A stretch of DNA of 64,000 nucleotides from Cystobacter fuscus (GTDB lineage: Bacteria; Myxococcota; Myxococcia; Myxococcales; Myxococcaceae): positions 12,028,001 to 12,092,000 of the forward strand of contig NZ_CP022098.1 of the NCBI RefSeq assembly GCF_002305875.1. The letters are read 5' to 3'. The notes beneath the pieces are model-generated. The model was not told the origin of the DNA and did no database searches. It was given only the letters and a program-made list of their open reading frames with translations. Within the stretch, counting starts at the first letter, position 1; every line of letters begins with the position of its first letter. A program made the translations under genes and the position numbers. This document shows positions 31,107 through 40,036 of the stretch, in pieces.

Positions 31107-32123
31107 TCAGCTGCAGATCGTCTCGAGCATGATGCGGCAGACCTCGTACGGGTCGCAGTTGGCGGCCGGACGACGATCCTCGAAGTAACCCTTGCCCTCG
31201 TTCACCGTCCCCATCGGGATGCGGATGGACGAGCCGCGGTCACTGTTGCCGTAGCGGAAGACATTGATGGGCGCCGTCTCGTGCAGGCCCGTCAGGCGCT
31301 CCACGTTGTGCGCGCCGTACACCGCGATGTGCGCCTCGTGCCGCGCGCGCAGCTTCTCGCACGCCGCCTCGATGACCTTCAGGCCACCCGGCTCGCGCAT
31401 CGCCTTGGTGCTCACGTTGGTGTGGCAGCCCGCCCCGTTCCAGTCACCCTTCACCGGCTTGGGGTGCAGCGTGGCGCTGATGCCGAAGTCCTCGCCCATC
31501 CGGTAGAGCAGCCAGCGCGCGAACCACAGCTCGTCGCCCATCTCCAGCGCCGTGATCGGGCCAATCTGGAACTCCCACTGCGCGGGCATCACCTCGGCGT
31601 TGGTGCCGTTGAGGTGCAGGCCCGCGCGAAGACACGCCTCGGCGTGCGCCTCCACCAGCTTGCGGCCAAACACCTCGTCACTGCCCACGCCACAGTAGTA
31701 GCCGCCCTGCGGCGCCGGGAAACCCTTCTCCGGCCAGCCCAGCGGGCGGTTGCCCTCGAAGAGCGTGTACTCCTGCTCCAGGCCGAACCACGTCTCGAAC
31801 GAGGCGTACTTCTCCGCCACCGCGCGCAGGGGCGCGCGCGTGTTGCTCGGATGGGGCGAGCCATCCTGATGCATCACCTCGCACATCACCAGCACGTCCG
31901 GCGTGCCCGGGCGCAGCGGGTTGGGGATGTAGCGCACCGGCTTGAGCTGGAGGTCGCTCTTCTTGCCCTCGGCCTGGTAGGTGCTCGACCCATCGAAGCC
32001 CCAGTCCGGCAGGTCCGAGAGGCTCTTGATCTCCGGAAGCTCCACCACCTTCATCTTGGAGCGCAGCTTCGCCGTCGGCTTCTGACCGTCGATCCAGATG
32101 TACTCCGCCATCACCTTGCGCAT
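31107..32123 (-). CDS. glnII: Glutamine synthetase, type II (eukaryotic-like)
   Basis: Makes glutamine from glutamate, ammonia and ATP. The 338-residue length and the motifs FDGSSTYQAEG, FGLEQEYTLFE, GDWNGAGCHTNVST and SDRGSSIRIP are those of GSII, not the 470-residue GSI. GSII lacks the adenylylation loop, so control should be transcriptional, in line with the -24/-12 promoter at 32198-32213. The ATG at 32123 has GGAGG upstream; ATG 32111 is an alternative. It is divergent from a NifA-like activator that probably controls it. Confidence 0.95.
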   Translation of the reverse strand: MRKVMAEYIWIDGQKPTAKLRSKMKVVELPEIKSLSDLPDWGFDGSSTYQAEGKKSDLQLKPVRYIPNPLRPGTPDVLVMCEVMHQDGSPHPSNTRAPLRAVAEKYASFETWFGLEQEYTLFEGNRPLGWPEKGFPAPQGGYYCGVGSDEVFGRKLVEAHAEACLRAGLHLNGTNAEVMPAQWEFQIGPITALEMGDELWFARWLLYRMGEDFGISATLHPKPVKGDWNGAGCHTNVSTKAMREPGGLKVIEAACEKLRARHEAHIAVYGAHNVERLTGLHETAPINVFRYGNSDRGSSIRIPMGTVNEGKGYFEDRRPAANCDPYEVCRIMLETICS

Positions 32124-32197
32124 TTCGGACTTCCTCCGGCCCTGTCGGGGGGCCTCTTGCTCCTGGACCCGCGAGGGCCCTGCTGCCTGAGCTTCAT

Positions 32198-32213
32198 TGC
32201 AGATGTGATGCCA
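32198..32213 (-). promoter_or_regulatory. Sigma-54 promoter of glnII
   Basis: The minus strand reads TGGCATCACATCTGCA, with GG and GC separated by exactly 10 nt as RpoN promoters require. The transcription start would be near 32186, giving a leader of about 60 nt before the glnII ATG. Confidence 0.75.
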
Positions 32214-32298
32214 GCCGGTTTCCCCGCCCCTGAATCGAGGCAAGTCCGCTGAATCCTTGGAAATGAACCCCTTCAACCCCTCCCCTCTCCCCTGGATT

Positions 32299-32344
32299 CC
32301 TACGTTTTTGTCGGCTCCCCGGCTCTTTCCTACAAAATTGTCGG
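32299..32344. promoter_or_regulatory. Operator pair 1, enhancer-like sites for glnII
   Basis: Two 16-bp dyads, CCTACGTTTTTGTCGG (32299-32314) and CCTACAAAATTGTCGG (32329-32344), start 30 bp apart, that is, three helical turns on one DNA face. Half-sites are CCKAC with a 6-bp A/T-rich centre. They lie about 113-158 bp upstream of the predicted glnII start, the usual distance for binding a sigma-54 activator. Confidence 0.65.
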
Positions 32345-32532
32345 AACTCTCGGCCCCCAAGAAGCCCCGCGCCCCTCCATCCCTCTCCTCTTCCCACATC
32401 CTCGAGCCTCCACCTACCGCTCGGTCGGTCCGGTCTTCTTCGCTTGATTAGAATCCGACGCGCTCGGCCCTGCTGACGCCCGCTGACGGACAGAGATGTG
32501 GGCAACCTCCTTCCAGGAGCGCCCTTCCCCTA

Positions 32533-32578
32533 CCTACAATTTCGTAGCTCTTGGCTTTCGGGCCGACAAAAATGTAGG
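32533..32578. promoter_or_regulatory. Operator pair 2, mirror image of pair 1
   Basis: CCTACAATTTCGTAGC (32533-32548) and CCGACAAAAATGTAGG (32563-32578) again start 30 bp apart. Read on the minus strand they repeat the order of pair 1: T-rich dyad, 14-bp spacer, AAATT dyad. They end 75 bp before the regulator's ATG, suggesting autoregulation. Confidence 0.62.
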
Positions 32579-32579
32579 A

Positions 32580-32597
32580 AAGAGTCTTTTGACTCTT
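32580..32597 (+). promoter_or_regulatory. Hairpin overlapping a -35-like TTGACT before the regulator gene
   Basis: AAGAGTC-TTTT-GACTCTT is a perfect 7-bp inverted repeat starting two bases after operator pair 2. It includes TTGACT (32589-32594), a possible -35 box for the activator gene; no good -10 was found. Confidence 0.35.
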
Positions 32598-32652
32598 CAG
32601 TCGATCAGGAAGGCTTTCCGGAGAGGCGGCTTTTTCCGGAAGAGGGGCGTGC

Positions 32653-34200
<1,548 letters not shown>

Positions 34201-35697: not shown

Positions 35698-37188
35698 TCA
35701 GCGCCCGGAGGTGGAGCGCTCCCCCTCCCGCAGCGCCGCCTGGAGCAGCGCCTGGGTGTCCAGCTCCGTGCGCCGCACCTCGCTCGCCCCCGCGAAGGCC
35801 TCCTTGTAGCCCCCCGCCACGAAGGCCTGGAAGTCCGTGGTCGCCACCCGGTAGCGCCCCTCGGGCCGCACGGGCTCCTCCCCCGCCCCCGGATCCGCCG
35901 CGTCGCGCAACACCCTCAGCTCCTCCACCCTCCCCTCGCGCACCCGGTAGCTCACCCCACTGCGCTGGCTGTAGCCGTCCGTCCCCCGCTTCGACTCGCT
36001 CAGCGCCACCCAGTCCGCCAGTTGCTGCCCCGTCATCTCCGCCGTCACCAGCACGTTGCGGTAGGGAAACGCCCCCTCGAACTCCTCCCGCGTCACCTCC
36101 CCCGCGGGCAGCCCCGCCCGAAACCCCGCCGCCATCGCGAAGAAGGCCCGCGCCCCCGCCGCCCGCCGCCACACCTCCGTCGCCCAGGTGCCCACCTCCG
36201 CCTCCCCCGTCGTGAGCCCCTCGTCCCCCAGGGGCCTCGACAGCCGGCCCACCCCCACGAAGCGCTCCGGCCGCTTCTCCCTCAACGCGCGCCCCAACTC
36301 CTCCACCCTCGCCGCCGTCTCCGCGTCCTCCGGCCGCGTCCCGTCCAGCTTCACCAGCCCTCCCTCCACCCCCACCAGCCGCCGTCCCTGGAAGCGCAGC
36401 CGCACCTCGGACAGGTACGCCAGGTACTGGTAGGAGGACACCGTGTACGTCCTCGTCCCCGGCACCACCCGCAGGTCCTCCCGGGCATGCGAGTGCGAGC
36501 CCAGGATGAGATCGATGCCCGGCACCGCCCGCGCGAGCGCCTCGTCGTCCTCGCGCAGCTGATGGCCGATGAGCACCACGGCGTCCACCTGCTCACGCTC
36601 GCGCAGGGCGCCCACCACCGCCCGCGCCGCCTCCGTCGCGTCCGTCCACCGCGTCCCCTCGGGCAGCCGCTCCGCCTTCACCAGCCGCTGCATGTCCGGC
36701 CCCGCCACCGCGAAGAAGCCCAGCCGCACGCCCCCCACCTCCCGCACGAGGTAGGGCCGCCCCTCCACCTGGAAGTGCGGCGCGCCGTCCGCTCCCACCA
36801 GGTTCGCGCACAACACCGGGTAGTCCACCGCCGCCCGGCAGCGCGCGAACGCCTCCGCCCCGTAGTCCAGGTCGTGGTTGCCCAGCGCCATCATGTCCAC
36901 CAGCCCGTTGAACCACGGCCACTCCACGCACCCGTACTCGTCACTCCACGCGGGCACGCCCTTGTTCACCCAGTCGCCCCCGGATACCCCCAGCGTGTCC
37001 GGCCTCGCCTTCGCCGCCCGGAAGTACGCGAGCGCCCGCGCCACCCCTCCCTGGCCCGGCTCCCCCTCCGAGTAGAAGGGCTCCGCGTGCGAGTGGTAGT
37101 CCGTCATCCCCACCAGCGTCACCGTGTGCGTCGTCTGGCAGGCGGGCAGGAGCAGGAGACTCGAGAGCAGGGCGAGGCGCTTGTTCAT
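35698..37188 (-). CDS. Lipoprotein metallophosphatase / 5'-nucleotidase (UshA-like)
   Basis: A 496-residue lipoprotein (lipobox LLPAC, Cys17). The N-terminal calcineurin-like domain shows DYHSHAEPF, GGDWVNKG, GNHDLDYG, VLIGHQ and GSHSHARED, the ordered metal-binding motifs of 5'-nucleotidases; the first motif reads DYHSH rather than DFHG. The C-terminal domain (from about 300) has FPYRNVLVTAEMTGQQL and RYRVATTDF, matching the substrate-binding domain. It probably hydrolyses nucleotides or similar phosphates at the cell surface. The ATG at 37188 starts the signal sequence. Confidence 0.9.
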   Translation of the reverse strand: MNKRLALLSSLLLLPACQTTHTVTLVGMTDYHSHAEPFYSEGEPGQGGVARALAYFRAAKARPDTLGVSGGDWVNKGVPAWSDEYGCVEWPWFNGLVDMMALGNHDLDYGAEAFARCRAAVDYPVLCANLVGADGAPHFQVEGRPYLVREVGGVRLGFFAVAGPDMQRLVKAERLPEGTRWTDATEAARAVVGALREREQVDAVVLIGHQLREDDEALARAVPGIDLILGSHSHAREDLRVVPGTRTYTVSSYQYLAYLSEVRLRFQGRRLVGVEGGLVKLDGTRPEDAETAARVEELGRALREKRPERFVGVGRLSRPLGDEGLTTGEAEVGTWATEVWRRAAGARAFFAMAAGFRAGLPAGEVTREEFEGAFPYRNVLVTAEMTGQQLADWVALSESKRGTDGYSQRSGVSYRVREGRVEELRVLRDAADPGAGEEPVRPEGRYRVATTDFQAFVAGGYKEAFAGASEVRRTELDTQALLQAALREGERSTSGR

Positions 37189-37267
37189 GCGCGCCCCTTC
37201 ACACCCCCTCCCCGCCACGTCAAGCCAAGCTCCCCCCTCTCATCCCCGGCGAGGGGGCTCGGACGGC

Positions 37268-37891
37268 CTACTCCCAGGACAGCACGTACTCGCTGTCCAG
37301 CACGTCCACGCGCGAGCCCACCACCTCCACCCCGCGCGCATGGGTGGACTCCAGCACGGCCCGCAGCAGGCCCTCGTGGAAGGAGCACGGCATGAAGTCG
37401 CGCCGCATGATGACGCGGCCCCGGCTGAAGCCCTCCCACGCCACCGTGCGCTCCCCGTGGTTCACCGCCGCCCGGTACGCCGAGGGCAGGTTGCCCACCA
37501 GCCGCCTCGTCTCGCACCGCGACAGCAACAGCAGCGCCTTGCCCGCCGCCGACGCGAGCAGATCCGCCGCCGCCCGCTGCCCCAACAGCCGCTGGGCCGC
37601 GTCCCAACCCCCACACCCCGGCGCCAGCTCCCACGCCGCCGCCGCGTTCACCCTCATGAAGGCGCCCAACGGATAGTTGAAGAACTCCTTGAAGCGCGGC
37701 TCGCCCCCCGCATCCACGCAGCGCAGCATCGCCGCCTCCCCCGCCCACGCGCGCACCGCGTCCAGCGTCCCCAGGAAGAGCGAGCCCCTCACGGTGTCCC
37801 CGGGGATCGCCAGCGCCAGGCGCCGCGCCAGGTCCTCGGCCGCCTCCACTCGCACCGGACCCACATCCACCGCACAGGCACTCGTCTGCAT
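37268..37891 (-). CDS. DUF2378 (TIGR02265) family protein
   Basis: A 207-residue protein with the blocks of this mostly myxobacterial family: GTLDAVRAWAGEAA, RFKEFFNYPLGAFMRVN, GGWDAAQRLLGQRAAADLL, LPSAYRAAVNHGERTV and RRDFMPCSFHEGLL. The fold resembles haem/NO-binding-like proteins but no ligand is established. The ATG at 37891 has GGAGGGG about 8 nt upstream. It is divergent from the PilZ activator at 38225. Confidence 0.85.
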   Translation of the reverse strand: MQTSACAVDVGPVRVEAAEDLARRLALAIPGDTVRGSLFLGTLDAVRAWAGEAAMLRCVDAGGEPRFKEFFNYPLGAFMRVNAAAAWELAPGCGGWDAAQRLLGQRAAADLLASAAGKALLLLSRCETRRLVGNLPSAYRAAVNHGERTVAWEGFSRGRVIMRRDFMPCSFHEGLLRAVLESTHARGVEVVGSRVDVLDSEYVLSWE

Positions 37892-38224
37892 GACACCACC
37901 CCTCCCGCCAAAGGACGCCAGGTCGCACGCCTTCGACACCCCACCCTAACCACGTCTCTCCCAACCGACAGGGGGCCCCCCCCTCGCTCCTCCACGCTTT
38001 TTCCAGCACGCCCCATCTTCCCTTGCCCCTCGCCCACCTCCAGCGCCCACCACGTTACACTTCGCGGAAGCTCCACCCCCTCCACGCGTGCCCTCCCGAG
38101 GTGTCCTCACGGACAGCCAGCCCCCTGCCCACCTCGACTGTGGTTCTCTGGACAATGTTGGTCTTTCTTGATTTTTCTGGAATCACCACCCGGGTTTCAC
38201 GTTCGACGCGATGGAGCCCCCCGC
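37892..38224. other. Divergent intergenic region
   Basis: About 330 nt between the DUF2378 gene and the PilZ-AAA activator. It is C-rich with one A/T-rich patch (38160-38190, TTGGTCTTTCTTGATTTT). No spacing typical of a sigma-54 promoter and no repeat was found. Promoters for both genes must lie here but none was recognised. Confidence 0.4.

Positions 38225-40036
<1,812 letters not shown>

Follow-up and report, generated by a model that had tools for sequence, protein, structure and literature searches.

The 64,000-nucleotide stretch of Cystobacter fuscus DNA analysed here (the window) carries, between divergent genes for a type II glutamine synthetase (glnII) and a NifA-like enhancer-binding protein, a set of paired operators whose sites, pitch, accompanying sigma-54 promoter, conservation and repeated linkage to nitrogen-assimilation genes can be read directly in the genomes compared. 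On this evidence it is highly likely that the NifA-family regulator, which combines GAF, AAA+ and HTH domains, is the protein that binds these operators and activates sigma-54-dependent transcription of ammonium-assimilation genes, probably while also controlling its own gene. The locus is very probably a switch that governs ammonia assimilation through sigma-54 in a bacterium without nifH.

The two divergent genes enclose 529 bp (32124-32652), in which the original prediction had placed four 16-bp dyads, arranged as two pairs with starts exactly 30 bp apart and 14-bp spacers, and a GG-N10-GC promoter on the glnII side. Both elements were recovered by direct reading, the promoter being a sigma-54 element that lies 86 bp from the nearest dyad (D1). 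The features of the locus are listed below.

31107-32123, minus strand: glnII, type II glutamine synthetase (reading frame with ATG at 32123; NF041605 GlnII, 515.5 bits, cut-off 500)
32198-32213, minus strand: sigma-54 (-24/-12) promoter of glnII, TGGCATCACATCTGCA (consensus match; kept in 10 of 10 orthologous regions)
32299-32314: dyad D1 of the glnII-side pair, CCTACGTTTTTGTCGG (read directly; genome motif search; orthologue conservation)
32329-32344: dyad D2 of the glnII-side pair, CCTACAAAATTGTCGG (read directly; start 30 bp from D1)
32413-32428: fifth dyad, with a GC core, CCTACCGCTCGGTCGG (exact match to CCKAC-N6-GTMGG)
32444-32460: conserved block, TTGATTAGAATCCGACG (distance to D3 constant within 1 bp in 10 of 10 genomes, other distances variable)
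32533-32548: dyad D3 of the regulator-side pair, CCTACAATTTCGTAGC (ends in GC, a final C for G, hence one mismatch to CCKAC-N6-GTMGG)
32563-32578: dyad D4 of the regulator-side pair, CCGACAAAAATGTAGG (read directly; start 30 bp from D3)
32653-34200, plus strand: NifA-like enhancer-binding protein of 515 aa (ATG at 32653; TIGR01817, 538.3 bits, cut-off 528.85)

The proposed consensus CCKAC-N6-GTMGG holds for D1, D2 and D4, whereas D3 departs from it at its last base and the fifth match at 32413 had been overlooked. This fifth dyad, situated exactly 120 bp (4 x 30) before D3, is kept in four genomes of the window's genus and is absent from the orthologous glnII/regulator regions compared in a second genus of the same family (g8). 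It had also been claimed that the two pairs form a mirror-image, symmetric duplication. The order of the dyads is formally as described, with the T-rich core first and the A-rich core second on either strand, but this look arises because each pair is nearly its own reverse complement; the two pairs have unrelated spacers, more distant relatives do not preserve the core order, and the idea of a mirror-image duplication was therefore rejected.

Throughout the 12.35-Mb genome, exact matches to CKACRWWWTTGTMG are confined to D1-D4, a result to be read as a test of uniqueness rather than of significance because the motif was drawn from these very dyads. Likewise, the paired pattern CKAC-N6-GTMG-N16-CKAC-N6-GTMG with zero mismatches occurs only twice genome-wide, both times within 32299-32578. 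Only exact pair matches were used, since a looser search that tolerates three mismatches drowns in chance hits (2378 genome-wide versus 2680 in the control). Conservation among orthologues is stronger evidence than this genome-wide uniqueness.

The comparison set comprised ten fully readable divergent glnII/regulator regions, namely the window, three from the same genus and six from g8, and the dyads proved to be conserved in all of these related myxobacteria; the loss of conservation that, according to the original prediction, would have refuted it was thus not seen. Two pairs are present in each region, all 20 pairs having a pitch of exactly 30 bp, and the distance from D2 to D3 varies between 162 and 228 bp. 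A promoter of the form TGGCAY-N5-CTGCA, whose left end lies 101-104 or 114-115 bp from D1, accompanies them in 10 of 10 regions; a conserved match to the sigma-54 type (TGGCAC-N5-TTGC, with GG/GC at -24/-12) was found at all ten glnII promoters and also at amtB promoters. Identity between the genera amounts to 85% in the dyad columns and 87% in the promoter as compared with 36% in the 14-bp spacers and 38% in the remainder, and the dyad identity was reached by none of 20000 random block sets (permutation P < 1/20000). The length of the spacer is thus constrained while its sequence is free, as expected if two protein dimers were to make contact along one face of the helix. In an eleventh genome (G006) the region is divided between contigs, with one pair at the glnII contig end and another at the regulator end of a different contig, and the same promoter. 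Within the family, each of the 11 genomes in which GlnII was found also carries the regulator; among the 195 Myxococcota genomes searched, the regulator was found in 22, GlnII in 23 and both in 13, these being raw counts that ignore relatedness. The joint conservation of operators and -24/-12 promoter in the ten regions agrees with the predicted link between a sigma-54 activator and glnII.

Beyond glnII, what stays with the pair is the regulator gene, which has one in front of it whether the neighbour is glnII, amtB or neither. In family f7, where regulator identity is 68-69%, an amtB-type ammonium transporter gene takes the place of glnII as the divergent neighbour, again with two pairs at pitch 30, and a sigma-54 promoter is present in three of its genomes (G057, G050 and G046). 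In one of these (G057, L040 3171-4417) a second, apparently frameshifted copy of the regulator lies between two amt genes. An Acidobacteriota contig (L057; regulator identity 56%) combines amtB, a sigma-54 promoter and one pair at pitch 30, and in G080 and G081 a single pair precedes the regulator gene by 35-43 bp with neither glnII nor amtB adjoining. No pair was detected by matrix scan beside the regulator genes of the orthologues L056, G187 and G029, and orthologues below about 50% identity (L058, L063, L065-L067), which show single or ambiguous sites, were left out of the counts.

Arrays also occur away from the regulator gene. They precede amtB together with a sigma-54 promoter in G006, G080 and G083, the operon of G080 being amtB-glnK-glnA, and two pairs at pitch 30 stand before amtB in four g8 genomes. 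At amtB in G030 and G010, sigma-54 candidates were read by eye (TGGCTCACCGGTTGCA, TGGCCCGCCCGTTGCA), a scripted scan around the first listed site only giving no confirmation; in G102 and G103 the search for amt arrays used the exact pattern alone. Two pairs, of pitch 30 and 29, precede the urea transporter gene urtA in G009 (L044 11737-11869), and two pairs at pitch 30 lie in G029 (L189 3746-3909) beside ORFs read as uroporphyrinogen-III synthase and nitrite reductase, probably a nitrite/siroheme locus. Outside the Amt search, the names amtB, glnK, glnA, urtA, synthase and reductase were assigned by eye from the translations. Over 18 genomes the exact pair pattern gave 25 matches, as against 2 in the reversed control. 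Chance clearly accounts for some of the 25, and the isolated matches in L168, L169, L180 and G001:C17 were treated as chance hits. The view that the protein is a dedicated activator of glutamine synthetase consequently holds at most for the window genome, given the relatives' arrays before amtB, amtB-glnK-glnA and urtA. The only amt and PII genes of the window genome have no arrays, so that the regulon there looks like a single locus.

The rigidity of the pitch was further assessed with a matrix built from two genera only, scoring pitches of 17-60 in held-out regions against 400 Markov samples. Nine of these regions had a positive pair score, and pitch 30 was best in eight, each unmatched in the 400 samples, with 31 best in the remaining one (G075). 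Although 48 pairs at pitch 30 were listed overall, they were collected by scanning at that pitch, and the unbiased evidence is therefore that of the ten regions and the held-out scan.

The sites relate to a known type of recognition sequence. Among 80 half-sites, the C of the central AC is present in all 80 and the A in 79, and the base before it is T in 45 and G in 34. The AnfA consensus is TAC-N6-GTA and the VnfA site is GTAC-N6-GTAC (PMC7294313; PMC9542535), so that the centre AC-N6-GT is common to both and to the dyads described here. AnfA (Rhodobacter capsulatus and other alpha-proteobacteria) and VnfA (Azotobacter) are also GAF-AAA+-HTH sigma-54 activators of the NifA kind, and they need two neighbouring sites for full activity (PMC7294313; PMC9542535), a parallel to the pairs found here. 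On the other hand, they serve alternative nitrogenases, unlike the putative targets glnII, amtB and urtA, and the present dyads differ by their conserved outer CC/GG and by the T or G at position 3; the full TAC-N6-GTA occurs in only one dyad per region in the ten regions, the outer CC/GG being extra. The proposal of a new binding code therefore survives only in part: as judged from the sites, the code is a variant of the known AnfA/VnfA-type code, not wholly new because its centre is their core, and the outer bases and the tolerated T-to-G change set it apart. The claimed difference from the NifA site, which is TGT-N10-ACA (PMC7294313), was borne out, as this sequence is absent from all ten intergenic regions.

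The regulator itself consists of a GAF domain (PF13185), an AAA+ sigma-54 interaction domain (PF00158) and a Fis-type HTH (PF02954), the same domain order as NifA, and it narrowly clears the curated NifA equivalog cut-off. Its recognition helix, however, differs at several positions from that of Rahnella NifA (TPRQIAYRIQIM), and the best nifH match in the complete window genome scores 27.7 bits against a cut-off of 394. With no nifH found in the genome, no TGT-N10-ACA in the ten regions and a recognition helix that departs from NifA, the protein has the architecture of NifA but is not a nif regulator here. A comparable arrangement is that of NtrC at glnA, where two dimer sites about three turns apart lie some 110-140 bp upstream of a sigma-54 promoter and where NtrC also controls its own gene. 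The likeness extends to the paired sites before the sigma-54 promoter of a glutamine-synthetase gene, but NtrC has a phosphorylated receiver domain, whereas the present regulator has a GAF domain and no receiver. Nlh1 of Aquifex aeolicus, also a NifA-like GAF activator, has been speculated to act in nitrogen assimilation instead of fixation (PMC9866876), and its GAF domain (4g3k) is related by sequence. Nla28 of Myxococcus xanthus is likewise a sigma-54 activator in myxobacteria, acting on starvation genes, but it recognizes an 8-bp direct repeat, CT(C/G)CG(C/G)AG (PMC9765219). The open literature searched yielded no publication on the regulator of the present locus or on its sites.

In the mechanism proposed, each 16-bp dyad would be bound by one dimer of the regulator, two dimers being placed next to each other at a distance of about three helical turns. 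The glnII transcription start can be placed near 32187, with the centres of D1 and D2 at about -120 and -150, positions that suit enhancer looping, and the regulator on this pair would loop to sigma-54 RNA polymerase at 32198-32213 and switch glnII on. In relatives, the same protein and the same arrays would control amtB, amtB-glnK-glnA and urtA. The GAF domain may read nitrogen status, through either 2-oxoglutarate or PII; 2-oxoglutarate, which is bound by NifA of A. vinelandii (PMC9866876), would be the obvious candidate signal.

For the regulator-side pair, autoregulation is the most likely function, with a possible additional contribution as a second enhancer. The suggestion that the activator also controls itself is compatible with sites beside its own gene: the pair ends 74 bp 5' of the regulator start codon in the window and lies 48-74 bp from it in ten genomes. 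No consistent plus-strand candidate for a sigma-54 promoter of the regulator gene was found in the ten regions, and D3/D4 are too close to the start codon to be the enhancer of such a promoter; the block TTGATTAGAATCCGACG is possibly the regulator's promoter or the site of another factor. A different reading is that D3/D4 act on glnII only, as the distal half of an enhancer that holds four dimers. Two-pair arrays also precede amtB genes beside which no regulator gene was found (G006, G080 and four g8 genomes), so that two pairs seem to be the standard enhancer of the regulon, and for this reason D3/D4 may also belong to that of glnII. Nevertheless, a purely distal role seems unlikely, though it deserves to be taken seriously, since the single pair before the regulator gene in G080 and G081, where glnII and amtB do not adjoin, is hard to explain save by autoregulation, and since, across the ten genomes, the regulator-side pair stays near the start codon and at a fixed distance from the block but not from the glnII promoter. 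Autoregulation is preferred as the probable role of D3/D4.

As to the identity of the binding protein, an inverted repeat with an A/T core would by itself suit many repressors too, and the dyads could belong to some other regulator with the same type of recognition. A different dimeric regulator (e.g. NtrC or a one-component repressor) might be responsible, and the NifA-like protein be a chance neighbour or a target. This is improbable, because a pair is found next to the regulator gene in different genera and families and even in a second phylum, although the neighbouring genes differ, and because the dyad core matches the sites of the related AnfA/VnfA proteins. Paired sites with a three-turn pitch about 85-150 bp upstream of sigma-54 promoters are moreover typical of enhancer-binding proteins, a pattern to which the spacing and position found here conform. 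The TIGR01817 score could be taken to point to a true NifA, its nif genes having been lost or being located elsewhere, with glnII as a side target. The absence of nifH from the complete genome and of TGT-N10-ACA from the ten regions and the fact that the targets found are assimilation genes make this highly improbable, and a true NifA with nif targets was rejected. The preferred binder remains the NifA-family regulator encoded beside the dyads.

These arrays provide a ready, testable nitrogen-control regulon for large-genome myxobacteria and link a NifA-family activator to assimilation rather than fixation. They also carry the AnfA/VnfA-type recognition core into further phyla, where it follows a strict rule of pairing at 30 bp. 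More tentatively, and with rather more doubt than confidence, they could represent an undescribed nitrogen-control system, common to some members of the Myxococcota and Acidobacteriota, in which ammonium assimilation is governed not by NtrC but by a NifA-type protein acting on two-pair (four-dimer) operators. Such a system may be similar to the ancestral function out of which NifA, AnfA and VnfA were drawn into nitrogen fixation. Some 3 kb downstream of the regulator gene, the window also contains a frame (37124-40036) encoding a second sigma-54 activator with AAA+ and Fis-type HTH domains, whose N-terminal part appears PilZ-like by eye.
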